From: Larus michahellis
Taxonomy: Eukaryota; Chordata; Aves; Charadriiformes; Laridae
Reading direction: 5' to 3'
Length of the DNA: 64,000 nt
NCBI RefSeq assembly: GCF_964199755.1
Contig: NC_133898.1
Coordinates: 130,632,224-130,696,223 of the forward strand
Under the pieces are notes generated by a model, which made no database searches, was not told the origin of the DNA, and saw nothing but the letters and a program-made list of their open reading frames with translations. Positions 6,103-62,200 of the stretch are shown here, one piece after another. The position numbers and the translations under genes are program-made. Numbering within the stretch: position 1 is the stretch's first letter; every line of letters starts with the position of its first letter.

Positions 6103-8901
6103 TTACCTGGAGGCTTCTTCCTTGAGCTCCTTGTTTTTCCTCACTTCTTCCGCGTGTTTGTCCTGTGGGAGGGGGGTGGGGGAGTAGGAGGGAAGGAGGA
6201 GGGGGGGACACGCGTTAGCTGGACGGACTTCGGGGTCCCCACGGGTGGGCCAGCGGCTTCGGAGGGGTTCGAAGGCACGAGGGCGTTTTGCGAGGTTCAT
6301 CCCCGGAGGGACACCACCGATGGGTCAACAGCGTCCTCTCCTCCCCTCTGGGGTGTTTTAAGGACTGTGGAGGCACTCAGGGACAGATTGTCCTCGCCCT
6401 CTAGCTAGGAGGTAGACGTCAACCAGACGGGATGGACCGGGAGCCCCAAGGAGATGGGGTTAGCTCGGATTGTCCTTCATTATCTCGTGCTCTCTGCCTC
6501 TGACCCAAGGCTAGCTGAGGCGTTTGGAGAAGGGCACTGGGCGAGCTCCTTGCAGAAGGGATGTTTTGGAGGGAGCTGGAGGTGGTGAGGGTGGGACCTT
6601 CCGTGCTGAGGTTGGGAACAGACCTGCTTCAGGGAGAGAGAAGAGGTCTGCACAGGCTGGCAGGGTGGAAGCATCTCCTAGAATGGCAGTACGGACCCCT
6701 CCAGCTCCGCCGGGGAGCTGACGGCTCCATGGCCTCTGGGGAAGGGGCCAGGGGAAGGTCTACCACCCGGGAGGTAGAAAAATTGCCAGCGGTGGGTCAA
6801 GGCCATTAGGGTGGGACACGGGGAAAGCAAAGGCTTTGCATGTCTGCGGACAAGATACGGGTCCCAGCTCTCCACCCACCAACCGCTCGTGAGCCTACGG
6901 ACACGTCAGGCTCTGTGGGTCCCTGGTCAGGACCCCCCACCCCAGGTGGGACGTTGTGTTTGGATATCGCTGCATGGTGGGAAGAGAAGAGGGAGTCCCC
7001 GCTTTGGTGGTGTCCCCAAGGGGAAATGCCACCCCAAGAACCATGCAGGGTGCCCAGGTGTCCTGTGACACCCTCCTGGACCAGTGTCCCAGCTCATCCC
7101 CCCCTGCCTCCCCACCATGCACTCACCTTCTCCTGCAAGCGCTCCAGCATGGCTGCTAAATGGGCCTCGCGGTTCTCCTTGTTGGACTCCATTTTCTGTG
7201 CCAGCTTCTCTTTGGCCATTTTGATGAAGTTGTTGTTCTCCTCGATCGCCTTCTGGATGACCTCCCGCTCGTGCTCCCGCTTCTCCGCCAGATGCTTCAG
7301 CAGCTCAGCCTCTTGGTACTGTGTGGGCAAAGCGGACACGATGGCCATGTGGACCATGGGTTCCTTACCCTCCTGGCCAAAACCATCCCCTCTAAACTCA
7401 GCAACGTCCCCAAAGGTGGGTGCACCTTGCTGAGCACCCCAAGTGCAAGGTGGCGTGTCCCCATGGCACGTCCCCCTGCTGCTGTACCATGCGCGAGTTG
7501 CTGGACTTACCTTCCTCCTCTCCTCCGCTGCCTCCAGCTTCTTCTGGATCTCTTCCAGGGATGGGTCGCGGCGCCGGGGCAGGGAGGCGTTGAACTCGGG
7601 GATGCCATCGAACGATGGGGGCTTCAGGATGACCTCAAAGGACTGCCCCGAGGTCCGCTTGTTGAGCTCGATGACTTCCATGTCGGAGATGACGCACCAG
7701 GTGAGGTCTACCGTGTCTGCTGGGAGAGCGGCACGGGCTGAGCGCCGGCACGGGTGCATCCCACTCCAGTGGGAAACCATCCCGGGGTCCCACAGCCCCC
7801 TCAATGTACCACCACCTTCCCCAGTCCCCACGGGTTCCACCCAAATCCCCGCACACCCCGAATGCACCCCTGCGGTTCAGCCCCAACGTCGTGGGTTGGG
7901 GCAGGGACTTCAAGACACCCATGGAGGGGGCTGAGCTGGGAATATTTGGGCAAGCTGAGGGGCTGGGCAGCCCCTCGAGGGAGAAGCGAGCAAGCAGGGC
8001 AACGTTCAGCCCTGCTTTGAGGACTGGGAATGGGACCGTGAAGACCAGATCCCCCCGCAGCTGGCCGGGAAGAGCCCCCCCGAGGCTGGGCATCCCCCTC
8101 CGTCGCCGCTGTCGCCTCTGGACCCGCCGACATGAATCAGGCTGAATCACCCGACGCCGTCTGCCTAAAAATACCGAGCCCACGCCTGGCGCTTCGTGCA
8201 GCGGAGCCGTGGTGGAGGGCGGGGGGGGGTGCTTGTACCAAGGTGGGGGGTGTCTGCCTCCCCCACCATCCGTGTGCATCCTTCGTCCATGGGCGGGCTG
8301 CAGGCTCCTACCTTCATACGTGTACGTCGGCTTGTTCAGGGGGTCCGAGAGGAAACAGGAGCAAAAGAGGGAGACGAGGGGCAGCTCCTTCATCTTCTCT
8401 TTGTAAGCTGGGAAGAGATGGTGGGACGGGGGTCAGAGGGGTGGGGGGGGCGTCCTGCCGGGTGTCCAGGGCAGGGGCTGCCACGCGCCAGGGAAGGTCT
8501 GGGACGGAGGCGGTGGCTGGCTCCAAAGTTTGCCCAGATATTGCAAACAGAGTGATCTGGGTGGGGGAAGCAAGGTGTGCAAAGGGGAAACTGAGGCATG
8601 AAGGGGGGGTGGGGAGGGGGGCGTGTTTTACTCATGGCCACATGGGTGGTGTCTGTCCTGGTGTGTTCCCCACACACACGAGCCCTCCCCTGTCACCACT
8701 TGGGTGCTGTGAGCGTCCCAGGGCAGGGGTTAGCCCGGGGTAGGGCCAGCCCTGGGGGGCGGTTGGATGGGGCCCCACTCAAACTAGGGGTGCCCCAGCA
8801 TGGGGTAGGTGCCAGGGTTGGGTTCATGGGCATGGGTGAGCCGTGCTGTCCCCCTGTCCCCACGCGCAGCCCCGCGATGGTGCCGTACCAGCCAGAGTCA
8901 T
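6103..8901 (-). CDS. STMN4: Stathmin-4 (RB3), tubulin-sequestering phosphoprotein, five coding exons
   Basis: The spliced frame gives 189 aa, the length of mammalian RB3. Exons (minus): 8889-8901, 8312-8407, 7511-7719, 7127-7318, 6103-6162; all have GT donors and AG acceptors and phases agree. The protein starts [20 protein letters not shown]; cysteines 20 and 22 of the FCSCF motif are the palmitoylated Golgi/vesicle anchor known for neuronal stathmins. The stathmin-like domain follows, from [20 protein letters not shown] through the long charged helix ([26 protein letters not shown]) to the end [11 protein letters not shown]. The family binds two tubulin heterodimers and promotes microtubule disassembly; RB3 is mainly neuronal. 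The sequence matches mammalian STMN4 much better than STMN2 or STMN3, notably in [12 protein letters not shown] and ADTVDL. A 5' exon and possible N-terminal extension lie at 12967-13012. Exon 3 has a CAGCAG tandem acceptor (7717-7722). I did not find a convincing counterpart of the extra RB3'' exon. Confidence 0.96.
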
Positions 8902-10090: not shown

Positions 10091-11158
10091 AGCTCGTGTC
10101 TAGAGAGCGCCAGTCCTCAGCTCGCCCCTTGCCAGACCACACGCAGGGGGGCTGACGCACCGGGACCCTCTCCGGGGGTCTTTGTGGCTGTGGGTCAGGC
10201 GTGGGGGCATCCCGGGACCCCCGCCCATCCCCGGGGTGCAGAGCCCCGGGGCAAGCGCAGGACCCAGCATCGGGGCGGCAACACCCAGAGCCTCATTAAG
10301 GCCCAGGTAATCCCGGGCTGTCCCCCTTTCCCAGGGTTTCTGGGGACACAGACGGGATGTCGGCGCCACCAGAGGCGGTTTCCGGGTGGAAATGCCCTTC
10401 CCGGCTGTGCCAAAGTGGGGGCTGAATTTGGGTTTTGGAATTATCCACGGCTTTTGTTTCTAATGGTAAAAAAAAAAAAAAAAAAATAAATCCGTTTTAA
10501 AAATAAGGACTCTTAAATCCTCGCAGCTTCCCCCAGGGAAGGGACAACCCCCCCACCCCGCCGTGGGCATCCTGGGGCTGCCAGGGCACTGCCAGCTCCC
10601 GCAGCCGCAACACACCCCGACCCAGTTGGAACTGGGGGATCCCGAGAAATCCCCACCCCTTGTCCCCCGTCCTGCCGGGATCGGACGCGGGGATCACTCA
10701 AATAACCCCCCCGCAGCTGCCGGGGAGGGGGGGAAATGGGGACAAAATGGGGACAGGGTGACAGAGGCACCACCCCGGAGATGCTCCCCTTTTTCTAGGT
10801 GACGCCCTGAGCGGGGGCTGGTTGAGTTTGGGGGTTCCCAGGGTTGTACCCCCCCCCCCCGCCACGGCTTTCCCCTTGGGTTTGCTCCGGGTGGCTCCTG
10901 CCAAGCGCGGTGGGGATGCTCCGGTGGCTCGTGTCCCCACACAAGGCTGTGCCCGGAGCTGTGACAGCCCGGCACGCAGGCAGCCAAAGCCTTTGCCATC
11001 CCCATCCCTCCCCGCTCCTTCCATTATCACCCCAATTCCTCATTTTTCCTGGGCTCGCTGGGGGCAGGGGGGGGACCTGGATGCATTTCATGCCACAGAA
11101 AGCTTTCTTCCAGGCGTTCCTGCCCTGGCTGGAGGGGGAAATGCAGAGATCCCCCCCC

Positions 11159-11510
11159 GCATCAGACCCAAAATGGGGAGGAGGATGGGGTCCATGCAGA
11201 GACCCCCCCTCTGTCAGACCCAAAATGGGGAGGAGGATGGGGTCCATGCAGAGACCCCCCCCCGTCAGACCCAAAACGGGGAGGAGGATGGGGTCCGTGC
11301 AGAGACCCCCCCTCCGTCAGACCCAAAATGGGGAGGAGGATGGGGTCCATGCAGAGACCCCCCCCCGTCAGACCCAAAACGGGGAGGAGGATGGGGTCCG
11401 TGCAGAGACCCCCCCTCCGTCAGACCCAAAATGGGGAGGAGGATGGGGTCCGTGCAGAGACACCCCCCCCACCACCACCCCCGTCAGACCCCAAACAGGG
11501 AGGAGGATGG
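11159..11510. repeat. Minisatellite, about 53-bp unit, six to seven copies
   Basis: The unit begins near TCAGACCCAAAATGGGGAGG and ends in a C-run. Copies alternate between AAAATGG and AAAACGG variants and between TCCATGC and TCCGTGC, so pairs of units have been duplicated together. It lies in STMN4 intron 1. Confidence 0.85.
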
Positions 11511-15838: not shown

Positions 15839-16200
15839 CCCAGCGCTGGGGACCCGGTGCAGGATGTGTCCCCAGGACCCTGCATCCCCCCCGGCTGCCC
15901 CAGCGCTGGGGACCCGGTGCAGGATGTGTCCCCAGGACCCTGCATCCCCCCCGGCTGCCCCAGCGCTGGGGACCCGGTGCAGGATGTGTCCCCAGGACCC
16001 TGCATCCCCCCCGGCTGCCCCAGCGCTGGGGACCCGGTGCAGGATGTGTCCCCAGGACCCTGCATCCCCCCCGGCTGCCCCAGCGCTGGGGACCCGGTGC
16101 AGGATGTGTCCCCAGGACCCTGCATCCCCCCCGGCTGCCCCAGCGCTGGGGACCCGGTGCAGGATGTGTCCCCAGGACCCTGCATCCCCCCCGGCTGCCC
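15839..16200. repeat. Six identical 60-bp tandem repeats
   Basis: Six successive units of exactly 60 bp, 15841-15900 through 16141-16200, are identical in the sequence given. Each begins CAGCGCTGGGGACCCGGTGC. Because 60 is a multiple of three and the unit lacks stops, every frame shows a 20-residue repeating peptide. That is a property of the array, not evidence for a protein. Perfect identity means very recent expansion, active homogenisation, or an assembly artefact. Confidence 0.95.
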
Positions 16201-16402
16201 GAGGGCTCCACACCCCCCGGGAAACCTCCTTTGTTGGCGGGGGGTGGTGTGTGTGTCCCCCAACTTCGTCCCCATCCCTCCGGGATGCGCCGTGCCCCGG
16301 CGCTGGCTGGTACCCGGGGAGAGGGAGGGCGAGGGGGGGCGGGGGGGGGGGGGGGGAGGGAGGCGGGGAAAAGGTGCTGTCCTCCCTCGGATTGGGCAGA
16401 AA

Positions 16403-18497: not shown

Positions 18498-21400
18498 CTA
18501 GACGGGGACATCCTCATGGACACGGACCCGGAGGGGACAGATGCGGAGCGCTTTGGGCAGCGTGCCCTCCGGCCGCGCCCCCACGTAAAAATAAGGGAAG
18601 ACGGTGCCGCCGAACTTCTCGTGGAAGGTGTAGATGTGGGTCTGGGCGTCGGCGTCGTAGAAGGAAAGCTCCCCTTCGTTGCAGTCCAGCTCCACCCGGA
18701 TCCGCCTCAGGTCGCCCACCACCACCTCCGAACGCGCCAGGTTGGATGCTTGGCACGTCTCGCTGTCCTTCCCAGGCAAGTGGTAGATGTACCAGAAGCC
18801 GGAGCGAGCATCGTGGTGCAAGCTCCAGCGGGTGCCACCGCAGGGCCGGGCCACCCCCACCCGCCAGTTTGTGATGCCACCCAGGTCCACCTCCCAGGTG
18901 TGGAAGCCAGTGGAGAAGCCGCGGGAGCCCAGGATGCAGGGGGCCGAGGCGAAGCGCTCGGGGTTCTCCACCAGCAGCTTGTAGCCCTCGTTGGTGATGC
19001 TGGTGAGGTCCTCAGACACCGAGAGCCAGCAGCCCGCGGAGTTGGGGTTGAAGCTGAAGGGGACTGTGGTGGGGACATGCGTGTTAGGAGCCTGGCTCAC
19101 TGCAGGGATGAGCTTAGAGGGGGCACCACGGCCCTGAAGGTATCCATCCCTCCCTAACCCACCTCACCACGGAGAAATGCACCCTCCAGGGCTTCCCTTT
19201 TGGGGTGTAAGTGCCCCAGAGCACCCTCTGTGCTCTCCAGTTCTCTTCCCCAAGGCTCATCAGCCGTGGGCATGGCTGCTCCATGCTCCTCTTCTCTCCT
19301 GCACCCACCACCCCTGGGGCTGCCCCATGCAAAGGTTACTTTAGCCATAGAATCACAGAATGGTTTGGGTCAGAAGGGACCTTAAAGGCCACCCAGTGGC
19401 ACCCCCTGCCCTGGGCAGGGACACCTCCCACCAGCCCAGGTTGCTCCAAGCCCCGGCCAACCTGGCCTTGAACCCCTCCAGGGATGGGGCAGCCACAGCT
19501 TCTCTGGGCAACCTGGGCCAGGGGCTCACCCCGCTCACACCAAAGGATTTCTTCACAATATCTCATCCAAATCTCCCCTCTTCCAGTGTAAAACCCTTCC
19601 CCCTCGTCCCACGGCTCCCCTCCCTGCTCCAGAGTCCCTCCCCAGCTTTCCTGGAGCCCCTTGAGGGACTGGCAGGGGCTGGAAGGTCTCCGCGGAGCCT
19701 TCTCTTCTCCAGGCTGAACCCCCCCAGCTCTCTCAGCCTGTCCTCCCAGCAGAGGGGCTCCAGCCCTCCCAGCATCTCCGGGGCCTCCTCTGGCCCCGCT
19801 CCAACACCTCCGTGTCTCTCCTGTGCCGAGGCCCCAGCGCTGGAGGCAGCACTGCAGGGGGGTCTCCCCCGAGCGCAGCAGAGGGGCAGAATCCCCCCCT
19901 CGCCCTGCTGCCCACGCTGCTGGGGATGCAGCCCAGGCTGCGGGGGGGTATCTGGGCTGCCAGCGCACGGTGCCAGCTCATGGCCAGCTTTTCATCCACC
20001 AGCCCTGGGACAACCACCCTTCGGGGAGGACCCACGTGTCCCCAAGGCCCAGCACCTCACCTACGGTGATGGTATCCAGCATCTTCTTCCACACGTTGTA
20101 CTGCAGCGAGCCCAGGTACTTGGCGACATCGAGGAGCATCCCTGAGGGCACAGCCTCGGGCTCCTCGGCCGTGCAGGCGATCCTTGGGCAGGGGCGGAGG
20201 ACGGAGACGGGTCAAGGATGGAGGAAGAGTCTGGGCTGGGTCTCCTGGCACCTTGTGTTTTGGAAGGGACTTCCCCACCAGCACCCCACACCTCCTCGTG
20301 GGCTTTCCCCATAGCTTGCTCTCACCCCAGGAAGGTGGTGAATCACCCCAGGAGGGTCCCAGTACCAAATTCCCCCCACCATCAGGGTTTTAACGCTTCC
20401 CCCAGGACCTGCAATGCTTCTCTGTGTCAGGATGGACCCCCATCCTGCCCGGAGGCACCCTGGGGTGCTGCCTGGCCTCGGGGACCCCCAGCACCGCCTT
20501 CTGCTGGAGCACCAAGAGGGGACACAGGGCTACAGGAACTCAGTTGGGGCAGAGACCTTGCAGAAGACCCTGTTCAGCCCCATGGAGGGGGTGCCCCCGA
20601 GCCCCCAGTGTGACCAGGCAGGGGACATATCGGGGACCGGGACTTACCTGCGCTTGCGGTTCTTGTGGCTCTGAAAGAGAAGGAGACACCGGGCCATCAG
20701 ATCCCAAATTACGGGGGGGTCACGGGGGCTTGCAAATGCCCAAAGCATCACCCAGCGCCCTGCTCGCACCCCGGCAGGGGCAGGAGGGTGCCACAGCGAG
20801 GGTGACACCCCGCAGGGTACGGGGCAGCACCCCGGCGGGGCCGTACCATGAGGAAGGTGTAGTCGTCCTCCTTGAGGTCCGCCTGGAGCTGGAGGGCTTC
20901 GTTGAGCAGGGCCTGTCTCTCCTTCGCCAGCCGCCTCATCTTGCCCTCGATGAGGCCGCGCTTGTGCCGCGTCTCCTCCTGCAGCTGGGCCAGCAGCGCC
21001 TTCTCCTCGCCCCGCAGGAACTCGTGCAGCTTCTCAAACTCCTTCCTGATCCGCTCCTCCAACCGTACCTCTTCCACCTGCCCCATATGGGGATGTCACC
21101 ACCTCCCTTCGGAGCCCCCGGCTCCCCTTGGCTCCCCCCCCATCCATCCCCCTAAACGCTCCTCCGGAGTCCTCCGACCAGCTCCACAGCTCAGGAACTC
21201 ACTGGGACCACGCTGCCCTCCCAAAATCAACGTGTGCCAGCTGACACAGCAGCCCCAACCCCATCCCTCTGGTCCCCAATTCCCCATCCGAGTCCTTTCC
21301 TCCCCTCCAGCATCCCTCCCCGCTCAGGGGCGGAGCAGCCCAGCATGGGTGCAGCGCTCCACTCCATTCCCAGCCGCATTCCTGCCTGGGGTGTGTACAT

Positions 21401-23001
21401 GCATGTGCATACATGTCCACACATGTGTCAGGATCGGGCCCGTTGCCTGCCCGCCCGCCAGGAGGTACCACGCACCTGGTTGTGTTTGGAAATGGACTCG
21501 TAGGAGCGATGCACGGCCCAGAAATCCTTCACCTTATCCCGCAGGGAGGTCTCCATGTACTTCAGCTTGGCCTGCGGGGAGGACATGCCTTCAGCACCCT
21601 CGCAAACCTACGCCCGGGGTTCCCAGTGCGGAAAGACAAGAGCCCCAAACCCAGGAGGAGGAGGTTAAGCAGGATCCTTGCTCCATCCACCCTTTCCCCT
21701 CCGGCGGCCAAGCTCCAGGGTCAGTTCCACGCTGACCCATCGTGTCCGCACCAGACGCGACGGCTCAAAGCAGCGAGGCAGAGGGGAGCTTTGCTCCACG
21801 GCGAATCCTCCCCCTCTGTTTTTAAGCCCTTCTGAGGCCGCGCCGTCAAGCCCCTGCCTGCCCCCGGCAGCCGGCCAAGCCTTGCGAAACATCAGCCCCG
21901 CGGCCGCCCCGCCACATTTGAAATCTGGCCAGTTTCCCGCGGGCTGAGTCAGGCCGGGAAACGCGGCGGGTGCTGGCAGGATGCCCGTCTCCTCCTCTTC
22001 CTCCTCCCCGCGCAGCCACGGCCCCGTCCTGCCCCGTGGGGCTCGGGGCTGCCTCCCCATCCCGCATCCCTCCCCGGCTGGGGGAATTGTGCAACCTTCC
22101 CCCCCTGGGGTCCCATCCCAAATAGGCTCCCAACCCCGAGGCGCTGCTGCAATAACCAGTTGCTGCAACAACCAGCGCGGCCGAATCCAGCCCAGCGGAG
22201 GGTGAACGAGCCAAAGAAAGGCGGGGACCGGGACAAAACCCTGGGAGCATCACCCCGCTCCCCCCTCCTGCGGGGCAAAGGGCTGTGCCCCCAGGGGATG
22301 GGGTGGCCCTGGGTAATTATTAGGCAGGGAGAGCGTGGGGCGGCGATGCGGCAGGGGCACTCCCGTGGGGGACGCACCCTCGGCAGCGTGGCATCTTTCA
22401 TCCCGGCACGCCGGCAGGCACAACCACGCCGGGCACGAGCCAAAGCCGTGCGTTGGCAAGTTTGTGCCACGGCCTGCGTGGGTTGTACCCCTCTAGACAC
22501 TGGGGTCCATCTCCGTGCCATCTATCCCCCCCCCACCCTTCCCGGAGCATCCCTCACCCTGAAATCCGCCGCCACCTCCTGCACCAGCCGCATCTTGTGC
22601 CCTTCGTGCTGCTTGGAGCTCTGGCAGACGAAGCACGCCAGCTCCTTGTCCTCCAGGCAGAAGAGTTTGGCTTCTTCTTGATGCAGGGGGCAGAGGACGG
22701 ACGCCCGGCCCTGCGACTGTCCTTCCTCCTTGAGGATCATCTCTACCAGGTTGTTGAGGGTGTGGTTGACGCGGAGGTCGTCGAAGGAGGAGGTCTCCTT
22801 GCAGACGGGGCACACGTGGTGCCGATGCTCCCAGGAGCGGCTCACGCAGGCCTTGCAGAAGTTGTGGCCGCAGCAAAGCGTCACGGCTTCACGGAAAGGC
22901 TCGTAGCAGATGGGACACAGCAGTTCCTCCTTGAAGGTGGCCGTGGAGGACGAGGCCGAGGCCACCGAGCTGCTGGTTGAGGGTCTGGCTTCCTTCTCCA
23001 T
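18498..23001 (-). CDS. TRIM35: TRIM35, RING/B-box/coiled-coil/PRY-SPRY E3 ubiquitin ligase
   Basis: Six coding exons (minus): 22558-23001, 21476-21571, 20847-21077, 20648-20670 (23-nt micro-exon), 20061-20182, 18498-19063. Lengths sum to 1482 nt, giving 493 aa, the size of human TRIM35. The RING spans residues 29-67 (CPIC...CGHNFC...CPVC) and the B-box 2 about residues 104-135 (CPLH...CLED...CFVC...HEGH). The coiled coil follows, with motifs RLEERIRKEFEKLHEFLRGE and KEDDYTFLM. The PRY-SPRY begins near residue 306 (VPFSFNPNSAGCWLSVSEDL) and contains FHTWEVDLGG, RSGFWYIYH, GELSFYDAD and FPYFYVGA. Proteins of this family ubiquitinate substrates bound by the SPRY domain; mammalian TRIM35 has been linked to pyruvate kinase M2 and interferon regulatory factor 7 control. 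All zinc ligands are present and nothing looks broken. A CR1 sits in the last intron. The first coding exon has an AG acceptor just before the ATG, so a 5' UTR exon lies upstream. Confidence 0.97.
19345..20010 (-). mobile_element. CR1 LINE 3' fragment in TRIM35 last intron
   Basis: The plus strand shows the complement of a CR1 3' end (ATAGAATCACAGAATGG, then AGAAGGGACCTTAAAGG) running back into the C-terminal reverse-transcriptase coding region. It belongs to the same subfamily as the copy at 62205-62665, which matches it closely for more than 400 bp. The copy is 5'-truncated and in minus orientation, the same as the host gene. Confidence 0.9.
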
Positions 23002-25506: not shown

Positions 25507-40671
<15,165 letters not shown>

Positions 40672-41870: not shown

Positions 41871-42790
41871 TGCTATGCGAGAGCGGCTCATCAATAGCCA
41901 AAATGCTGCATTACCAACACCGCTCTAGCTACAAATACAAAGCACAGCACCATGTGAGCTGCAGGGAGGAATGCTGACCTCATCCCAGCCAGATCCAGTA
42001 CACAACTCAATCCCCAAGGGGAGTTCACAATCAGGATTAGATCTGGGGTTGGCAACCAGGGTGAGAAAGCATCCTGAGCATTTTTCCTTAGTCCCCCCCT
42101 ACCCCAGATGACTGCCCAGGAGGTGGGAAGGAGGGATCGTGCCAATGGGAGCTTCCAAAAGTCCCTGTTCCCCAAAGCTGCAGGTGCAGGACCAAATTTC
42201 AGGTGGCTTTTCAGCAGAAGACAACCCTGCATCCATCCCATCAGTGATGGCAGCAAGACGTGCCAAGATCTTAACATTCCTGGGGAGAGAGATCACGGCT
42301 GGTCTTTGGGGTTCTCTGCTGCTGGAGGCCTCCAGAGATAACAGTCAGATCTTTGCTCTGTCCCAGTAAAGCATGAGGCACTTGAAGGCTCCTCTTGTCC
42401 CTGGTCCCAGGGCTGCAAACCAGTCTGGGCTCTGCCCTCCCCTCTGGGCAGGACGGGGGCAGGCAGACAGCAAGGTCCTGCAGCTGCTGGTGGTGCTGGT
42501 GGCATGTGAAGGACAGGCGTGTGTTGGACATGCCCAGACTGTCCTTACCGGGGGGTCTGACCTAGTCCAGCAGCTCATGGTCTTCCTCGCTGAGCTCAAC
42601 CGTCTGGCTGGCCCCAAAATGGACACGTGTCCATGTGCACGGGTCAGTTGATGGTGAGGCTGGCAGGTCTTTGGGCACTTCTGCATGTCTTGGGACATCC
42701 ACCAGTGGGACTGAGGGGTGGCTGTTGGGCAGGGAACCCCCCGGTCACTTCTCTTTGTCATCTGCTGGCTGCACTGGTGGGGCTGCCCAG
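41871..42790. other. Unassigned sequence between the CR1 and the membrane-protein paralogue
   Basis: The part at 42420-42500 (GGGCAGGACGG...CAGACAGC) resembles 43930-43985, so it belongs to the duplicated locus described nearby. The rest is unassigned. Confidence 0.4.
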
Positions 42791-42799
42791 TGGGTAGTC

Positions 42800-43428
42800 C
42801 CTTCTTGGCCAGCCTAGAAGAGAGAAAGGAGGTGAGGGGGGACCCCTGGGCTCCATTTGGGCTCCGATGGCCAGCTCAAAGCCCAGCCCCAGTTCCAGCT
42901 GTAGGTCCTCCTCGTGCACCAGGATGTCCGCAGTGCAGAGGATGGCAGCCAGCGTGGGCAAGTCTCGATCTGCTGCAGCTTCCTTCTATCTGGGGCTACC
43001 TTCAGCTTACCCAGCAGGTCTCGGCAGATTTGGGTTATGCCCAGGGACTCCATCAAGGATGTTGTGAGCTCCTCCGTGTCAGTGGGGGAGAGCTGGTTCC
43101 TGAGGAGCTCGGAGCTGGTGGCAGCACTGACATTTCCACCTTGAGCCAGGTCTCCTGTCTCCTGGGGGAGCTCCCTTGCAGAAGCCTCTTCCCTGCACAC
43201 TTGCTTCCCCACTATCCTCTGCCACGGAGCTTTTTCCATCTGTGGGGGGAAAGACGATCTGGACTGTGGGGTTCCTGTGGGACAGGACGGACCCAGCACT
43301 GATGGGTGCCGGGGCCCATGCCACCGTGGGGGAGAATGGGTCCTGCAGAGAGCCCTGGGGCTGCGCAAGGGGCTGTCCCTGCCCGTCCCTCCCCGTGGTT
43401 CCAGGGAAATGTCCAGCAGCTCAAACAC
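42800..43428 (-). pseudogene. Decayed paralogue of the membrane-protein gene, exon 4 region
   Basis: The minus strand encodes ARELPQETGDLAQGGNVSAA, then SELLRNQLSPTDTEELTTSL and LGITQICRDLLGKLK, aligning closely with exon 4 of the gene at 45458-47445. After this the copy lacks the segment encoding the cysteine cluster (about 100 bp missing) and then continues with matching nucleotides in a shifted frame to the LQLELGLGFEL region. No membrane exon is seen upstream. It could be a truncated gene using alternative splicing (there is an acceptor near 42813), but a pseudogene is more likely. Confidence 0.65.
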
Positions 43429-43699: not shown

Positions 43700-44305
43700 T
43701 ACTGTTTTAATCAGTCAATAAAAGCCGACTTTCACGTCCGCGTTCTCCACCACGGTCTCACGTTAGTGGGGACATGGCTCATTGCTCCAGAGGAGCCTGT
43801 TCCTCCTTCCCTCCGTCTCCCCGCTGTTTCCCGGTCGCAGCCTCTTCTCCCGCAGCCTCTCCCGGTTCCCGTGCCCAGGGCGGCAGCCTGGTCCCTCCGC
43901 TGCACGGGGAGCAAACCCGGCCGGGCCCTGCTGTCCCCTCTGGGCAGGACGGCAGTGGGCAGACAGCCACGTCCTGGGGACAGCAGGGACCTAGAGGGGC
44001 GGTGATGGGCAGGAGACTCCTGGTCACTGCTCTCCATCATCTGCCAGCTGCACTGGGGGCGCCGCCCAGCGTGTGGGGTCTTCTTGGCCAACCTTAGGAG
44101 AGAGAAAGGAGGTGAGGAGGGACCCCTGGGCTCCAGGCTGGGGGCAGAGGAGGGCTCTGGGGTCCAAGCAGGGGACCTGAGCAGCGGGCATCTCCTGGGC
44201 ATCCCTGGCATTAGCCCTTGCCCTCCGCAAGCCCTGCAGGACACGCCCCTCCCCTGGCCTCTTCCAGGCATGGTGGCCCTGCGCCTCTCTGGCTCTGTGC
44301 CGCAT
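43700..44305 (-). pseudogene. Second partial copy from the same duplicated locus
   Basis: The region 43930-44130 matches 42420-42460 and 42795-42850 in pieces (TTGGCCAAGAAGACCCC-type, GAGAGAAAGGAGGTGAGG and GGGCAGGACGGCAGTGGGCA-type sequences). It looks like the 3' portion of another paralogue. No complete exon is recoverable with confidence. Confidence 0.45.
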
Positions 44306-44672: not shown

Positions 44673-45281
44673 TCAACGAGAGGTCACCACATCTTTCACC
44701 GTCATCCCAACACTCCCAGACCACAGCACCTTGTCCCACAGAAACTCCTCCGGAACAACACCAAAGTCTGCTCTCTCGAAGTCCAGGGTAGTGGGCTTGC
44801 TGTGTGCTCTCCTCGCTGCCCAAAGGATCTTGAATTCCACCATTTCATGATCACTGCAGCAGAGGCTACCCTTGAGCTTGACACTCGCCACCAGCCCCTC
44901 CTTGTTGGTAAGGACAAGGTCCAGCATAGTTCCTCTCCTTGTTGGCTCCCCTACCATTTGAAGAAGAAAGTTGTCATTGACACATTCCAAGAACTTCCTG
45001 GATTTCCTGTGCCCCACTCTGCTGTCTTTCCAACAGATACCGGGGTGGTTGAAGCCCTCCATGATGACCAGTGTCTGTGAACACAATGCCGCTCCTATCT
45101 GTCTGTGGAGGGCCTCATCCGCTCTGTCATCCTGGTCAGGTGGCCTGTAGCAGACCCTTACTGTAATGTCCCCTGCCTCTGCATTCCCTTTAATCTTGAT
45201 CCATAAGCTCTCCGTTGGGTCTTCATCCATCCCCAGGTGGAGCTCCATGGACTCCAGCTGTTCATTGACATAGAGGGACAT
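44673..45281 (-). mobile_element. CR1 endonuclease-domain segment, inverted relative to its tail
   Basis: A minus-strand frame encodes the CR1 apurinic endonuclease region (motifs VRVCYRPPDQDDRADEALHR, FNHPGICWKDSRVGHRKSRK, EPTRRGTMLDLVLTNKEGLV, GSLCCSDHEMVEFKIL). It abuts a plus-oriented CR1 3' end at 45283-45376, an arrangement typical of 5'-inverted LINE insertions. Confidence 0.9.
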
Positions 45282-45282
45282 G

Positions 45283-45376
45283 GGTTAGTGGTGTGCTTGG
45301 CAGAGTTGGGTTGATGATTGGACTGGATGATCTGAAAGGTCCCTTCCAACTGAGACAATTCTATGATTCTATGGTT
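45283..45376 (+). mobile_element. CR1 3' tail joined to the inverted segment
   Basis: Plus-strand TTGGACTGGATGATCTGAAAG-like sequence, then GGTCCCTTCCAACTGAGACA and three ATTCTATG/GTTCTATG octamers. Only about 95 bp of the 3' end remains in this orientation. Confidence 0.9.
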
Positions 45377-45457: not shown

Positions 45458-47445
45458 TTACACCACCATCAGCGTGGTGTGTTTGTGCGCGTACACCTTG
45501 CGTTGGATATGGAGTGGCAGCTCCTGGTCCCCTTCCCTGCTGCTGCTGGGCGCTGGGACGTCCGCTATCCAACACCAGCCGCACTCCTCTTCAATGGTCC
45601 TCCAGATGCTGGCCTTGGCTTTGTACCACCACAGCCGGATGCGCCGCAGACTCACCCCCTTTCCCATGCCCTTGAACTCCACCGAGGGCAGGGGCCCCAT
45701 CCCAGCTCTCAGCAGCCGCTCCAGGGCCGCAGGGGAGGGGGGCTGTGCCCATGGGGGCTGGGGCCGCGTGGGGACCTTGGTGGGGAGACCCTCCCCGTCT
45801 CCAGCTGGCTGCAGGTCTGCACTGCTGCTGTCACCGCCTCGTGTCTGTGCCTGCGAGCTCCTGGGCAGAGGCGCGTTGCAGTCCCTGCAGCATCTCTCAG
45901 AGGGTATTTCGGGGAACCGCTGGGTGCTCTCCCACGCATAGACCAGCTCCCCACCCATGGCCAGCTCAAAGCCCAGCCCCAGTTCCAGCTGTAGGTCCTC
46001 CTCGTGCACCAGGATGTCCGCGGTGTGGAGGATGGTGGTCAGCGTGGGCAGGTCCTGTTCTTCCGAGGGTTCGCTGCAGTGCGGGCAGCTGCCGGTGATG
46101 CATCCGCCGCACTGCAGGCAGATGAGGTATTCTCTCCTCACGGCTCCACACAGGACCGGAGCGGTGCTATCCGGAGCTTCTTTCAGCTTGCCCAGCAGGT
46201 CTTGGCAGATTTGGGTTATGTCCAGGGACTCCATCAGGGATGTGGTGAGCTCGTCCATGTTGGTGGGGGTGAGCTGGTTCCTGGGGAGCTCGGAGCTGGT
46301 GGCAGCACTGACATTTCCACCTTGAGCCACGTCTTCTGTCTCCTGGGGGAGCTCCCTTGCAGAAGCCTCTTCCCTGCCGCAGTCGGTTTCCCACCATCCT
46401 TCTCCTTGGGGCTTCTCGCACCTGGGGGGGGAAATACTGTCTGGACTGTGGGGGCTGCTGTGGGACGGGATAGACCCAGAACCCTCTCTCTGCCTTCTCC
46501 TGACCGACTGGGGGGTTTCCCAGCTCCCCAGGGCCAGCCCTGATGGCTCTGGGATGCTCTGGGGTCAGGTGGGTTCTCGGGGGACATGGTGCAAGTCCAG
46601 CCCAGCATAGTGAGGTGTTGGGCACCTTCCAGCCCAAGGAGAAAAGTCCCAGCCCAGAGCAGGGGCTGAGGACAGAGCACTGGGGCCACCAGTGGCCTCT
46701 ATGGGATGGGGTATGGTGGGTCCCAGCAGATGGAAACCTGCCATCCCCGCAGGGGTTTGCCCTGGCCCTCTACCAGGGAAGGGCTCTTCTTACCCATCGT
46801 TCAGGCTCCCTGTAGACCCCTCCACACCTTCTGAGTGGGCGACGACTCCTGGGGGAGAAGGCAGAAGGAGAACAACAAGGACAGACATCGTGGGGGCCAT
46901 GCAATGGGGTGTCTCTCTCGGCCGGGAGCTGCTGCAGAGCCTGCCACAGCTCTGGGATGGGGACACTCACCTCTCGCGTCCTCCCTCCTGTGTTTCTGAC
47001 TGCTCTTCGCTGCAGAGGTCCCTTGCCCTCCGAAAGCAAGGCCTGGGTTAGTGCAGGGTGTCCCTCGGCCAGGAGGGCCCCTGCCCAGGAAAGGAGGACC
47101 CTGGGAAGAGTAACTGGAGTTAGAGCGACAGGAGCATCCCTGTCCCCAAGCCTGGTGCCCCAGAGGAGATGGCTTGGTGGCTCCAGAGCAGGGGGTCTGG
47201 CTGGGTGGGCAATGGCCACTGTTCACTGCTCCCTCTGAGCACCCCGGGGATGGGGTCTGCCCCGGGCTGCCCCCACCCAGGGAGTGTTTGCCAAGACAGA
47301 TGCCTACCTTGGCCTTGGTCTTAAAGCAGCAGATCCTGGAGACGACCACAGTGAATATGGCCAACAAGCCAAGGATGCAGGGAAGCAAGAGCACGCAGAA
47401 GACCCAAAAGCCTGAGATGAAGGGCAGCTCCATCCACTGCTCCAT
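45458..47445 (-). CDS. Unrecognised single-pass membrane protein, four exons, 428 aa
   Basis: Exons (minus): 47308-47445, 46971-47100, 46794-46848, 45458-46421. Each boundary has a GT donor and AG acceptor and the phases (0, 1, 2) agree, giving 1287 nt. Exon 1 encodes MEQWMELPFISGFW and then a strongly hydrophobic segment (about residues 13-36, VFCVLLLPCILGLLAIFTVV) followed by SRICCFKTKAK, so a signal-anchor with a basic cytosolic stop-transfer side is likely. Exon 4 holds an acidic helix-like part (TSLMESLDITQICQDLLGKL), a cysteine cluster at about residues 209-223 (CLQCGGCITGSCPHC, possibly metal-binding), a second CCRDC, a conserved-looking EEDLQLELGLGFEL motif shared with the paralogue, and a basic aromatic end (RRIRLWWYKAKASIWRTIEE). 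I do not recognise the family. N-terminal anchors with long Ser/Pro-rich tails occur in testis SPATA31/FAM205 proteins, but no shared motif was identified. The start is the first ATG before the membrane segment; an upstream exon may exist at 51699-51775. Confidence 0.6.
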
Positions 47446-47654
47446 CTTGCCCAGGAAGTGCCAGCGTCTCCTGCGGGGTTCTGCATGATGATGGAAGTGC
47501 AAAGGGGTCAAGTGGGGAGGCCGAGGAACCCAGCGAGATCCCCTGAGGGGAGGAGAGGTTGGGGTGACACTGAATCACCCCGTTTGGTGTTTGCTTTTCT
47601 TCCTACTTCTGATGTGATTTTCACATGCTTGCCCAGCAGCTTGCTTGCTCAATG

Positions 47655-49290
47655 TCTCGCAGTGAATCCCAGAATCCCAGACCGGCAAGGGTTGGAAGGG
47701 ACCTCTGGAGATCATCCCGTCCAACCCCCTGCCAGAGCAGGGTCACCCAGAGCAGGTGGCACAGGAACGCGTCCAGGCGGGGCTGGAATGTCTCCAGAGA
47801 CGGAGACTCCCCCACCTCTCTGGGCAGCCTGTGCCAGGGCTCTGCCACCCTCACAGCAAAGAAGTTCCTCCTCACGTTGAGATGGAACTTCCCATGGTCA
47901 AGTTTGTGCCCGTTACCCCTTGTCCTGTCCCCGGGCACCACTGAGAAGAGCCTGGCCCCATCCTCTTGCCCCCCACCCTTTCAGTATTTACAAGCGTTGA
48001 TAAGATCCCCCCGCAGTCGTCTTTTTTCCAGACTGAAGAGACCCAAATCCCTCAGCCTTTCCTCATCAGAGAGATGTTCCAGTCCCCTCATCATCTTGGT
48101 AGCCCTTTGCTACCAAGGGTAGGCCTGAGCAGTAAAGACCGAAGCAAAGGTGACATTCGATAACTCCACCTTCTCTGCATCCTCTGTCACCATGGCTCCT
48201 GTCTCATTCAACAGCGGGCCCACATTTTCTCTAGTTTTCCTTTTGCCTCCGATATACTTGAAGAAACCCTTCCTGTTGACCTTGACATCCCCTGCCAGGT
48301 TTAATTCCAAGGGGGCCTTGGCTTTCCTTGTTTCATCCCTGCACGCTCTGACGACATTCTTCTAATCTTCCCAAATGGTCAGTCCCGTCTTCCACATACT
48401 GTAAACTTCCTTCTTCCACTTGAGCTTTTTCAGAAGCTCCCTGCTCAACCATGCAGGTCTCCTACTTCCCTTGCTCCATTTCTTGCTCTTAGTGATGCAC
48501 CCATACTGAGCCTGGAGAAAGTGATGTTAGAATACCAACCAGCTTCTTGAGCCCCCCTGCCTTCCAGAGCCCTAGCCCACGGGATTTATCCAAGCAGTTT
48601 CTTGAAGAGGTCAAAGTTAGCCCTCCTGAAGTCCAAGGTTGCGATCCTACTTGGTGTTTTGTGCGTACTACCCATGATCCTGAACTCTATCTTCTCACGA
48701 TCACTACAGCCAAGGCTGCCCCCGGCCTTCACGTCCTTCACCAGTCCCTCTTTGTTTGTCAGTACTAGGTCCAGTAGTGCTCGTCTCCTTGTTGGCTCCT
48801 CCACCACCTGAGTCAAGAAGTTATCATCCATACACTGGAGGAGCCTCCTGGACTGTGCATACCTGGCTGTGTGGCCTTCCCAGCAGATATCAGGGTGATT
48901 GGAGCGCCTCAAGAGAACCAAAGCCTGTGATGGCGAGGCTACTTTCAGCTGTTGGTAGAAGGTCTCATCAGCTTCCCCATCCTGATCAGGCGGCCTGTAA
49001 TAAACACCCACAACAGTGTCTCTCATATCGGCCTGCCCCTTAATCCTCACCCACAAGCTCTCGACTCTCTCTTCCTCTGCCCCCGGGGAGAGCTCGATAC
49101 ATTCCAGATGCTCTCTCACACAAAGAGCAACTCCGCCACCTTGCCTCGTTTGCCAGTCTTTCCTAAAACGGACACGGCTGTCCACGCCAGCGTTCCAGGC
49201 ACGTGAGCTGTCCCACCACGTCTCAGGAATTGCAGTGAGATTGTGTCCCTGCGACCGCACGCAGATCTCCAGCTCTTCCTTTCTGCTTCG
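47655..49290 (-). mobile_element. CR1 LINE with endonuclease and 3' end but lacking the RT core
   Basis: Read on the minus strand, it starts in the endonuclease (RSQGHNLTAIPETWWDSSRA at about 49260), continues through VVGVYYRPPDQDGEADETFY and TRRRALLDLVLTNKEGLV, and reaches the linker (GFFKYIGGKRKTRENVGPLL, about 48290-48230). At about 48115 it jumps to the C-terminal RT region and 3' UTR, ending with the tail near 47660. The catalytic reverse-transcriptase part is absent. This is one element with an internal deletion, or two adjacent pieces. Confidence 0.85.
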
Positions 49291-49295
49291 ATTCT

Positions 49296-51513
49296 GCGAG
49301 AAGCAAGGAGAGGGGTCAGCAGAACTGCTACCTTGGACTTCTGGAGGGCGGACTTTGGGCTTTTCAGGAGCCTGGTTGACAAAGTCCCCTGGGAGGCAGT
49401 CCTCCAGGGCAAAGGAGCCCAGGAAGCCTGGATGATTTTCAAGAAGGAAGTCTTAAAGGCGCAGGAGCAGGCTGTCCCCATGTGCCAGAAGACAAGCCGT
49501 CGGGGAAAAAGGCCGGCCTGGCTAAACAGGGAGCTAGTGTTGCAACTTAAGGAAAAAAAGAGGATCTATGGCCTCTGGAAGGAAGGGCAGGCCACTCAAG
49601 ACGACTACAAAGAGGTAGTGAAGCTATGTAGGGAAAAAATCAGGAGGGCCAAAGCCCAGCTAGAGCTAAACCTGGCTTCTGTTGTCAAGGACAACAAAAA
49701 AAGTTTCTATAAATATATTAGCAATAAGAAGAGGACTAAGGATTATCTCTGTCCTCTAGTAGATAGGGCCGGCAACATAGTGACCAAGGATGAGGAAAAG
49801 GCTGAGGTACTTAATGAAGTCTTTGCCTCAGTCTTCAGCAGTAGGACCAGTTGTTCCCTGAGCACCCAGACCCCTGAACTAGAAGACAGGGATGGGGAGC
49901 AGAATGAAGCCCCCGTAATCCAAAGGGAAATGGTGAGGGACCTGCTTCAGCACCTGGAGGTGCACAAATCTATGGGGCCGGATGGGATCCACCCAAGGGT
50001 ATTGAAAGAGCTGGCGGAGGTGCTCGCCAGGCCACTTACTTTGCATCATTTATGAGCAGTCCTGGACAACCGGGGAGGTCCCAGCTGACTGGAGGGTAGC
50101 AAATGTGACACCCATCCACAAGAAGGGCCGGAAGGAGGATCTGGGGAACTACAGGCCAGTCAGTCTGACCTCGGTGCCTGGGAAGGTCATGGAACAGATC
50201 CTCCTCGGTGCCATTACACGGCACATGCAGGAGAACAGGGTGATCAGGCCCAGTCAGCATGGGTTTGTGAAGGGCAGGTCATGCCTATCAAACCTAATAT
50301 CCTTCTATGATAAGGTGACCCACTTAGTGGATGAGGGAAAAGCTGTGGATGTTATCTACTTGGATTTTTGCAAAGCTTTTGACTCTGTTTCCCACAGCAT
50401 TCTCCTGGAGAAACTGGCTGCTCATGGCCTGGACAGGTGTACTCTTCGCTGGGTAAAAAACTGGCTGGATGGCCGTGCCCAGAGAGCGGTGGTAAATGGA
50501 GTTCAATCCAGTTGGTGTCCAGTCACAAGTGGTGTCCCCCAGGGTTCGGTGCTGGGGCCGGTTCTCTTTAATATCTTTATCAATGATCTGGATGAAGGGA
50601 TTGAATGCACCCTCAGTAAGTTCGCAGATGACACTAAGCTGGGCGGGCGTGTTGATCTGCTTGAGGGTAGGTTGGCTCTGCAGAGGGATCTGGACAGGCT
50701 GGACCAATGGGCTGAGACCAGTGGTATGAGGTTCAACAAGGCCAACTGCCGGGTCCTGCACTTGGGTCACAACAACCCCATGCAGCGCTACAGGATTGGG
50801 GCAGAGTGGCTTGAAAGCAGCTCGACAGAAAAGGACTTGGGAGTGTTGGTTGACAGCCGACTGAATATGAGCCAGCAGTGTGCCCAGGTGGCCAAGAAGG
50901 CCAACAGCATCCTAGCCTGTATCAGGAATAGTGTGGTGAGCCGGACTAGGGAAGTGATCATCCCCCTGTACTCGGCACTGGTGAGGCCCCACCTCGAGTA
51001 CTGCGTTCAGTTTTGGGCCCCTCGCTACAGGAGGGACATTGAGGTGTTGGAGCGTGTCCAGAGAAAGGCTACAAAGCTGGTGAGGGGTCTGGAGGACAAA
51101 CCTTATGAAGAACGACTGAGGGAGCTGGGGTTGTTTAGCCTGGAGAAGAGGAGGCTGAGGGGAGACCTTATCACCCTCTACAACTACCTGAAAGGAGGTT
51201 GTAGAGAGATGGGGGCTGACCTCTTCTCCCTGGTGACAAGTGAGAGGACGAGGGGAAACGGGTTCAAGTTACGTCAGGGGAGGTTTAGATTAGATATTAG
51301 GAAACATTTTTTCACTGAAAGGGTTATTAAACATTGGAATAGGCTGCCCAGGGAGGTGGTGGATTCACCATCCCTGGAGGTGTTTAAAAAAAGGGTAGAT
51401 GGGGCACTGAGGGACATAGTTTAGAAGTGGCTCTTGTCAGGGTAGGCTAAAGGTTGGACTCGATGATCTTAAAGGTCCCTTCCAACCTCAACAATTCTAT
51501 GATTCTATGATTC
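49296..51513 (+). mobile_element. CR1 LINE, long 3' half with reverse transcriptase
   Basis: It starts in the C-terminal endonuclease region (TATLDFWRADFGLFRSLVDK), then the linker ([37 protein letters not shown]). The reverse-transcriptase frame is open from 50105 to 51424 with canonical motifs [59 protein letters not shown] and the active site FADDTKL. One frame change near 50040 separates the linker frame from the RT frame. The element ends with GGTTGGACTCGATGATCTTA, AGGTCCCTTCCAACC and ATTCTATGATTCTATGATT. It lacks the 5' UTR, ORF1 and most of the endonuclease, so it could not move on its own. It is one of the least decayed CR1s in the window. Confidence 0.95.
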
Positions 51514-58984: not shown

Positions 58985-60960
58985 ATGCTGCACAACCGGC
59001 CACGCTGGGCACCCTGCCACACTGCAACCTGCCACGCTGCGCGCCGTGCCATGAGTGCACCCTGCCACGAGTGCACCCTGCCACACTGCACCCTGCCACG
59101 CTGCGCGCCGTGCCATGCGGTGTGCCATGCCACGAGTGCACCCTGCCACACTGCACCCTGCCACGCTGTGCGCCGTGCCATGCGGTGTGCCATGCCACAC
59201 TGTGCACCCTGCCACACTGCACCCTGCCACGCTGCGCGCCGTGCCATGCGGTGTGCCATGCCACGAGTGCACCCTGCCACACTGCACCCTGCCACGCTGC
59301 GCGCCGTGCCATGAGTGCACCCTGCCACGAGTGCACCCTGCCACACTGCACCCTGCCACGCTGCGCGCCGTGCCATGCGGTGTGCCATGCCACACTGTGC
59401 ACCCTGCCACGCTGCACCCTGCCACGCTGCGCGCCGTGCCATGCGGTGTGCCATGCCACGAGTGCACCCTGCCACACTGCAGCCTGCCACGCTGCGTGCC
59501 GTGCCATGAGTGCACCCTGCCACGAGTGCACCCTGCCACGCTGCACCCTGCCACGCTGCGCGCCGTGCCATGCGGTGTGCCATGCCACACTGTGCACCCT
59601 GCCACACTGCACCCTGCCACAGTGCGTGCCGTGCCATGAGTGCACCCTGCCACGAGTGCACCCTGCCACGCTGCACCCTGCCATGCTGCGCGCCGTGCCA
59701 TGCGGTGTGCCATGCCACGAGTGCACCCTGCCACACTGCACCCTGCCACGCTGCGCGCCGTGCCATGAGTGCACCCTGCCACGAGTGCACCCTGCCACGC
59801 TGCACCCTGCCACACTGCGCGCCGTGCCATGCGGTGTGCCATGCCACGAGTGCACCATGCCACGAGTGCACCATGCCACGCTGTGCGCCATGCCACACTG
59901 TGCACCCTGCCATGCCGTGCGCCATGCCACGAGTGCACCATGCCACACTGTACACCCTGCCATGAGTACACCCTGCTATGCTGCACCCTGCCACGCTGTG
60001 CACCCTGCCATGAGTACACCATGCCACGAGTACACCCTGCTGTGCTGCACCCTGCCACGCTGTGCGCCATGCCATGCTGTGCGACCTGCCATGCTGCGCA
60101 CCCTGCCACGAGTGCATCCTGCCACGCTGTGCACCCTGCCACGCTGTGCGACCTGCCATGCTGTGCACCATGCCACGAGTGCACCATGCCATGCTGTGCA
60201 CCATGACACGCTGTGCAGCCTACCACGAGTACACCCTGCCGTGCTGCACCCTGCTACACTGTGCGCCATGCCACGAGTGCACCACGCCATGCTGCGCGTC
60301 ATGCCATGCTGCACACGTGTGGCACATTGCACACCCTGACATGCAGCATACTGTGCCATGCCGCACACCCGGCCATGCCGTTCACCGTGCCGTGCTGCGC
60401 ACTTGTGCCATGCTGCACACCATGACACGCTGCACACCCTGCCGCACCATACACCCAGCCATGCAGCACACTGTGCCACGCTGCACGCCCGGCTACATTG
60501 CACAGTGTGCCGTGCTGTACACCCCGCCAGGCTGCACAGCTTGCCACCCTGCACACTGTGCTACATCGCACACCCTGCCACGCTGCACACCCTGCCACGC
60601 TGTGCACCCGACTGCCCTGCACGCCTGGCCTTGCAGCACACCCTGCCACGCTGCGCACCCTGCTGTTGTCCCAACACTGCCGCGCTGCACACCCAGCCAC
60701 GCTGCACACCCTGCTGTTGTCCCAACACTGACACACTGCACACCCTGCCACGCTGCACACCCTGCTGTTGTCCCAACACTGACACACTGCACACCCTGCC
60801 ATGCTGCACACCCTGCCGTATTGCACACCCTGCCATATAGGACACCCTGCCGTATTGCACACCCTGCCGTATTGCACACCCTGCTGTATTGCACACCCTG
60901 CCGTATTGCACACCCTGCTGTATTGCACACCCTGCCGTACTGCGCACCCGGCCACGCTGC
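58985..60960. repeat. Satellite-like array of about 15-17-bp units with higher-order structure
   Basis: About 2 kb of CACCCTGCCACGCTG-type units. In the first part (to about 59850) 15-bp units alternate with CGCCGTGCCATGCGG and TGTGCCATGCCACGA variants in a repeated higher-order order. The middle is more degenerate, and the end (60810-60950) is a 17-bp CCGTATTGCACACCCTG run. Because the main unit is a multiple of three and has no stops, both strands show open frames of 380-600 codons rich in Cys, His, Ala and Pro. These are not supported as genes. Confidence 0.93.
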
Positions 60961-62200
60961 ACGCCCCGCTCCCGCTGCCCAGCTTTCCCCGCGCATCCCT
61001 GCGGATAAAAATCCTCTCTTCCCTTTCCAGACCCCACCGGGCTCTTCCCTCCTCGTTCCCGGGGGGGCTGGTTGGGGCCCCCGTCCCTGCTCTGACCCCC
61101 AGCAGGGCAGAGGAGGAGGAGGAGGAGGAAAGGGGGTTGCCGTCACATCCCTCTGCCACTACAGCCAGAGGCGAAATACCTGCCTGCGCTGCCAGGAGCT
61201 GGCCCGTCCCATGGGGCCCTGCCGGGGCCACTTCCAGCGAACAGGGAATTTCCGTCTGGCAGAAACCGGGGCGTTTTTGCTGCCTGGGTTTTTATCTCGG
61301 AAGGTTGAAGCACGGAGGGATTTCAGAGGGGAAATTCCCAAACTCTTCCCCTTGCAGAGACAGCACGGGATGCTCCGCTCCGTAGCCAGAGCATCGCCGC
61401 CCCGGCCGTGGCGTGTGGAAACGGGGTGAGGTGGAATGAAGGTGCCTTTTCCCCTGCTGGGACCCCCCACTCCCGGCCCCAGAACAAAAGAAAACCTCGA
61501 GATTAAAAACTAGGGACCTCCCACTGAAAAAAAGTTTAAAATCACCCAGTTTGGGGGAGTTCAAGGGGAATAAATATCATGTTTTTGGCCCGAGATGGTG
61601 CGTCTGTGGCTCAGGTGGGGCAGGCAGAGTCGTGAAGGCACCTCGGAGGGTCACTTGGGCTATTTCATTTTTTTAAAATGGCACTTTAAACGTTTATCTT
61701 TCCGAGCAAAAGCCCAAAAACTTTGCAGAGGGTAAAAAAACTTCCAGTTCAGCGGCGAGCGGGTCTTGCGCAAGCCCGTGCCGCAGCGTGATAGTGCAGG
61801 GCCAGGAATGGTTGACGAGCCAGAAAAGAAAACGCTTAATTAAATGATGGCAATTAATTTTTGCCCAAACCCAGCCATATTCCCTTGGGTAATGCAAACT
61901 TCCCGCGTTTCGCAACCCCAGCTGCGGGTGCTGGGACGGCCCAGCTGGAAGGCAGTGTGGCCGCGGGGCTGCGGCCGTACAGGAGAGCGTGGAAAATGTA
62001 ATGGGGGGCCTGGGACCCGCTAACGAACCCGCCAAGCGTCCTGAGAGGGCTCGGTGGTGGAGCCCGGCAGTTTGCAAAGGGAAACGAGTTTCAAAGCAGG
62101 GCTCGGGGGTGACTTCCCAGCTGCTGCTCGGTGTTTCTCGCCCGGGGAAGTTGTCACCACGTGGTGTGACCATGGCCGAGGGCTTTTACAGGCTGCGGAG
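60961..62200. other. Unassigned intergenic sequence
   Basis: No exon, repeat or element is recognised; moderately AT-rich around 61480-61880. Confidence 0.4.

Follow-up and report, generated by a model that had tools for sequence, protein, structure and literature searches.

Genes and repeats at the locus

The region analysed here, referred to as the window, is a stretch of 64,000 nucleotides of the genome of the gull Larus michahellis (C3:130632224-130696223), and positions below are counted from its first letter unless stated otherwise. Its minus strand carries, in this order, a stathmin gene, a TRIM35-like gene, DRC1, a degenerate copy of the candidate and the candidate gene itself. The stathmin-family exons (7094..7867, minus strand) matched Pfam Stathmin with an E-value of 8.5e-43 and presumably belong to STMN4. 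The gene at 18498..23001 (minus strand) encodes RING, B-box, PRY and SPRY domains in the frames 18498-19100 and 22522-23001, and we assume that it corresponds to TRIM35. DRC1 (29022..36713, minus strand), the next gene downstream of the candidate, was recognised by its match to dynein regulatory complex protein 1 in the PDB and to Pfam NYD-SP28; the two exons tested, 29022-29465 and 36528-36713, gave PDB E-values of 2.9e-25 and 1.8e-15, respectively. Scans of the window for Rfam families (at the gathering threshold) and for tRNA genes were empty.

Beyond the window on the candidate's side lie exons for a kinase and a focal-adhesion-targeting domain, a nicotinic receptor and an HAD-hydrolase-like exon just under the Pfam cut-off, followed further out by exons with FAD-binding and ALO domains; POMC is found on the opposite side. 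We take these genes on the candidate's side to be PTK2B, CHRNA2, EPHX2 and GULO, respectively. The last of them is represented by L-gulonolactone-oxidase-like FAD_binding_4 and ALO exons (L015:5501-5635 and L017:2126-2362) about 75-92 kb past the right end of the window; L-gulonolactone oxidase is the vitamin C enzyme that has been lost in many birds. The neighbourhood mixes genes of human 2p23.3 and 8p21, and its gene content, like the CR1-like repeats, is consistent with a bird genome. DRC1 lies here between the TRIM35-like and PTK2B-like genes, and a ferlin gene, presumably OTOF, is located about 0.5 Mb away at 131.14 Mb (C3:131.136 Mb). DRC1 and OTOF are adjacent in human, so a rearrangement would explain their separation in the gull.

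The window also contains a 2-kb tandem array (58985-60966) with nested periods of 17, 64, 129 and 195 bases, which has several open frames on either strand, with translations rich in Cys and His or in Trp and Gly, and probably gives rise to spurious long frames. Three more minisatellites were found at 9144-10079, 11141-11470 and 15830-16207. The last consists of 6.3 copies of a 60-base unit with 98% matches between units, and is therefore probably young.

Repeats closely flank the candidate gene. A repeat copy at 47664..48111 ends about 220 bases before the start codon, and a repeat at 45273..45376, apparently the antisense 3' end of a CR1 element, begins about 80 bases past the stop codon. 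Next to it lies a retrotransposon endonuclease fragment (44673..45281, minus strand; Pfam Exo_endo_phos_2, E-value of 2.9e-8).

Gene model and features of the product

When spliced in silico, four minus-strand exons at 47445-47308, 47100-46971, 46848-46794 and 46421-45458 gave exactly 428 codons and a TAA, a frame of 1287 nt whose sole stop is at the 3' end. The initial annotation had proposed a four-exon frame of 428 codons with proper splice sites, and all its coordinates proved exact to the base. The exons measure 138, 130, 55 and 964 nt and the introns 207, 122 and 372 nt, with GT..AG boundaries in all three. The donors read AAG/GTAGGC, GAG/GTGAGT and TGG/GTAAGA, and the acceptors end in TCTTCCCAG/G, TCTCCCCCAG/G and CCCCCCCCAG/G. 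When a consensus matrix was applied to the same strand of the window, the donors ranked in the top 0.8, 0.2 and 1.6% of all GTs; the corresponding values for the acceptors among AGs were 0.9, 0.4 and 2.5%. The start codon at 47445 stands in the context AAG-ATG-G, with A at -3 and G at +4.

Exon 1 (47308..47445), defined by splice signals, hydropathy and third-position G+C, encodes a short acidic N-terminus, a hydrophobic signal-anchor helix and the stretch RICCFKTKAK. Exon 2 (46971..47100) encodes a Gly/Pro-rich part followed by a basic linker, and exon 3 (46794..46848) a polar linker; the basis for both is their splice signals only. The main part of the protein, residues 109-428, and the stop codon come from exon 4 (45458..46421), identified by splice signals and codon-position rank. 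Downstream, among the three poly(A)-signal-like words tried on the same strand from 45460 to 42000, we found only ATTAAA, at 45194 and at 43711. The former falls inside the endonuclease fragment and could be the transcript end.

The signal-anchor helix and the cysteine cluster noticed in the initial annotation are both present. The best 19-residue Kyte-Doolittle mean reaches 2.92 at residues 17-35, within a helix of about residues 12-36, and never exceeds 0.94 in windows starting beyond residue 45. The cluster CLQCGGCITGSCPHC, with the spacing CX2CX2CX4CX2C, occupies residues 209-223 (46076..46120, minus strand). When the protein was shuffled 5000 times, five cysteines within 15 residues turned up in 149 cases (about 3%), which makes such a cluster only mildly unusual. 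AlphaFold2 run on exon 4 alone gave no usable structure model (pLDDT 35).

Coding signal and chance expectation

Coding DNA in GC-rich regions is expected to show a codon-position G+C profile like that of exon 4 (0.63, 0.51 and 0.77 at positions 1, 2 and 3) and of exon 1 (0.39, 0.37 and 0.85). As a null for rarity we used 244 kb of real DNA, genes included, made up of the window plus 180 kb of flanking sequence, and scored stop-free segments with a codon-position model which, like the splice matrices, used rough consensus values. Among the 4434 segments remaining once low-diversity segments were dropped, exon 4, represented by its best sub-segment (45461-46354), ranked 12th with a score of 35.3. 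The best antisense segment scored 9.6 (rank 234), and we rejected an antisense artefact for exon 4 on this difference. Seven of the 11 segments with higher ranks are Pfam-identified exons or reverse transcriptase: a nicotinic-receptor-like exon, POMC, stathmin, TRIM PRY/SPRY, TRIM RING/B-box, a focal-adhesion-targeting exon and a reverse transcriptase. The other four lie at window positions 111116, 20847, 49330 and -14458; a Pfam search of the frame 49243-50055, which overlaps the segment at 49330, returned no family.

The front exons behaved differently. Exon 1 scored 11.0, below the 19.9 of its antisense segment. Exon 2 scored -12.0, which gives no support, and exon 3 showed neither codon-position support nor a notable segment on the sense strand; both exons are short. 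With this signal absent, exons 2 and 3 have the support of splice signals alone.

The open frame of exon 4 (368 codons from stop to stop) is the 39th longest in the 244 kb. Of the 38 longer frames, 25 are repetitive (3-residue-word diversity below 0.8), and the remaining 13 include one reverse transcriptase and one receptor-like exon. Since long open frames are frequent in the region, frame length alone is weak evidence.

We then looked on either strand of the 244 kb for ATG-started chains of four exons. The thresholds were chosen in knowledge of the candidate: a donor score of 3.8, an acceptor score of 4.2, at least 900 nt for the last exon, and bounds on the sizes of exons and introns. A single terminal exon, the candidate's own, was obtained. 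The result was unchanged when the last exon was allowed to be as short as 600 nt or the splice scores were moderately lowered. At the loosest settings, the sole additions were three starts at 99.3 kb that overlap one another and fall at or within the nicotinic-receptor-like exon.

These results bear on the possibility that there is no gene at all, and that open frames and splice-like sites have lined up by chance in GC-rich DNA. Long frames are indeed abundant here, only exon 4 and, to a small degree, exon 1 have codon-position support, and the cysteine cluster is of a kind that 3% of shuffles produce. Against this, at the candidate's own thresholds neither strand of the 244 kb holds a further such chain, and exon 4 ranks 12th among 4434 segments, so that we consider a chance line-up highly improbable. 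The initial annotation had argued that the phase agreement itself is unlikely to arise by chance. Taken alone, phase is weak evidence, but combined with the strength of the splice sites and the codon signal of exon 4 it does count.

It is also conceivable that exon 4 is truly coding while the front exons are other than modelled, in which case the true protein may have no helix. The missing codon-position signal in exons 2 and 3 and the higher antisense score at exon 1 agree with this, as does a second chain that passes the same thresholds: it starts at 47486, uses another frame of exon 1 and another acceptor for exon 2, shares the last two exons with our model and loses the helix. Yet the modelled splice signals fall in the top 0.2-2.5%, and exon 1 as modelled combines a hydropathy peak of 2.92 with a third-position G+C of 0.85; we regard a different front end as very unlikely.

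A disabled copy next to the gene

The DNA alignment revealed a degenerate partial copy at 42864..43299 (minus strand), which corresponds to the last stretch of intron 3 and a portion of exon 4. Its segments 43299-42986 and 42964-42864 are 86% and 92% identical to the gene, respectively. The copy has a frame shift of one base and a 91-base gap (46166-46076 in the gene) that deletes the cysteine cluster, and its C-terminal half is missing. Past the shift 89 codons are aligned, of which 9 differ synonymously and 14 nonsynonymously; with 32.5% synonymous changes expected in the absence of constraint (P 0.32), there is no signal of selection between the copies.

The initial annotation had cited a nearby paralogue with several preserved peptide motifs in support of the gene. 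This argument does not survive: the copy is partial and frameshifted, has no cysteine cluster and bears no mark of selection, and DNA identity of 86-92% by itself accounts for the peptides that it has in common with the gene. Being truncated, frameshifted and devoid of the cluster, it offers no independent coding evidence. A functional second copy was likewise rejected, the local copy being disabled by the frame shift and the gap.

Two further pieces, at 42713-42855 and 42415-42480 (minus strand), match 43994-44135 and 43911-43976, which indicates that the duplicated unit extends past the gene; neither piece provides coding evidence. The segments 43994-44135 and 42713-42855, one beside each exon 4 copy, are 81% identical. 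With a pyrimidine tract resembling that of a splice acceptor, this duplicated piece may represent a further 3' exon or UTR of the gene.

The state of the copy is pertinent to the idea that the candidate itself is a relic, its frame intact in the assembly while transcription has ceased or become rare, hemmed in by retrotransposon insertions. Repeats ending about 220 bases upstream and beginning about 80 bases downstream would fit such a history, as would a tandem copy that is already disabled and a selection test on that copy that came out neutral (P 0.32). On the other hand, the 428 codons and all six strong splice signals are undamaged and exon 4 has a strong codon-position signal, and this makes a relic quite unlikely in our estimate.

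Search for relatives

The initial annotation could not place the protein in any family, and this still holds against Pfam and the PDB. The 428-residue product matched no Pfam family at E-values up to 10. Searches with the exon 4 frame and nearby frames found no family either, apart from one match of a nearby frame at chance level (E-value of 6.7). The best hit in a PDB sequence search of the product had an E-value of 0.27, which we took as chance, and collections of viral and prokaryotic contigs yielded no relative.

We further searched the whole genome (1.4055 Gb, 616 contigs); only the best candidates are scored in this matching, and the copy numbers are therefore lower bounds. Exon 4 was found in at least one full copy and the local fragment, together with a chance-level match with an E-value of 5. 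Among the best candidates scored, the helix of exon 1 retrieved itself and one match with an E-value of 1.45. A transposable element or retrogene was rejected, given that no second full copy appeared among the scored genome candidates and that the gene has three introns; one full copy in 1.4 Gb is not what a transposon would leave. In those parts of the literature consulted on SPATA31, PRR30, the neighbouring genes, bird orphan genes and unannotated testis genes, we came across no account of this gene.

Among known systems, we compared the candidate first with the SPATA31 (FAM75) family. In SPATA31, the final coding exon is exon 4, which is also the longest (PMC5338094). The layout of the candidate is similar, with short exons of 138, 130 and 55 nt before a long fourth and last coding exon of 964 nt. 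The domain comparison came out otherwise: FAM75 (PF14650) and DUF4599 (PF15371) are absent from the product in Pfam searches with E-values up to 10, and among the 32 genome candidates scored for DUF4599 nothing exceeded the cut-off (best E-value of 0.18). Membership in SPATA31 was thus rejected on the domains despite the agreement in exon layout. SPATA31 proteins share with the candidate an N-terminal hydrophobic helix, are much longer than its 428 residues and differ from it in that the candidate carries the cysteine cluster. The DUF4599 search of the genome also recorded, below the cut-off, a tandem repeat family on another contig (G000:C19:3505960-3539390), with eight weak DUF4599 matches spaced by 4.7-4.8 kb, each in an open frame of 414 codons.

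The two neighbouring CXXC pairs recall zinc ribbons and rubredoxin-like knuckles. A classical zinc ribbon needs wider cysteine spacing than the candidate has, and the candidate differs further in having no Pfam match.

The remaining comparison is with PRR30, and the question is whether the candidate is a divergent avian member of a mammalian germ-cell group such as the kin of this protein, an identity that would overlap with its being a real gene. The middle part of human PRR30 (2p23.3) reads approximately EYPICLxC...GIGFGL, where the candidate has REYLICLQC...LGLGFEL; a module resembling EYPICLxC...GxGFxL would thus occur in the same order. PRR30 is not known to have an N-terminal membrane helix like that of the candidate. 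A local alignment of exon 4 with an approximate PRR30 segment scored 52, a value also attained in 5 of the 2000 shuffles. In the genome, a degenerate DNA pattern for EY[PLSF][IV]C[LF]xC had 20 matches, and the reversed control had 5; the candidate's match lies in its 368-codon frame and the 19 others in frames of 13-169 codons.

When the same approximate segment was searched against the genome, the locus was absent among 131 matches with E-values up to 10 (best 0.32; 150 of 272 candidates scored), and the product has no Pfam family. The human gene lies between TMEM214 and CAD. Both of these neighbours are on the candidate's chromosome, at 131.88 Mb (TMEM214) and 131.96 Mb (CAD-like), but the locus itself, at 130.68 Mb on C3, lies about 1.2 Mb from the pair and not between them. 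We treat PRR30 kinship as a lead suggested by a short sequence module, and as an identity it seems rather unlikely.

Proposed role of the protein

We consider it likely that the locus holds a real, intact gene of four exons, whose product would most likely be a single-pass membrane protein of 428 residues with a cytosolic cysteine-rich tail; its role as a spermatid scaffold is a guess. Its kind is probably ordinary, while its identity, judged by Pfam and the PDB, is new. The rarity lies in the complete chain of four exons with good splice sites.

By the positive-inside rule, an established principle of membrane topology, an acidic N-terminus, a single helix and a basic stretch after it suggest insertion with the N-terminus out and the C-terminus in. 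The acidic N-terminus would then be outside or lumenal, the signal-anchor helix would cross the membrane, and RICCFK with the basic stretch would face the cytosol. Located beside the membrane, RICCFK could carry palmitoylation. The long cytosolic tail would be mostly disordered, and the CX2CX2CX4CX2C hairpin within it probably holds zinc. Together, the predicted hairpin and the basic-aromatic C-terminal helix would dock a partner at the membrane. Our first guess for such a protein, a spermatid membrane scaffold, takes its cell type from analogy only: it follows from the absence of a family, an exon layout in which short exons precede a long final one, and the site upstream of the axonemal gene DRC1.

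A more specific version of this proposal would make the gene a bird-restricted orphan that started a protein family of its own. It would have arisen in the interval from DRC1 to PTK2B, would encode a sperm adaptor that is anchored in the membrane and carries the cysteine cluster, and would already have produced one dead duplicate. In this narrow form we find it doubtful. Our broader reading is of a fast-evolving or lineage-restricted gene whose product would be a signal-anchored membrane protein, possibly of sperm.

Being one uncharacterised gene, it is of modest importance more widely. If expressed, it adds to the DRC1-PTK2B interval a gene outside the coverage of Pfam and the PDB. Fast-evolving membrane proteins of this sort, probably of the germline, are easily overlooked in annotation, and they bear on sperm biology and on the origin of new genes.
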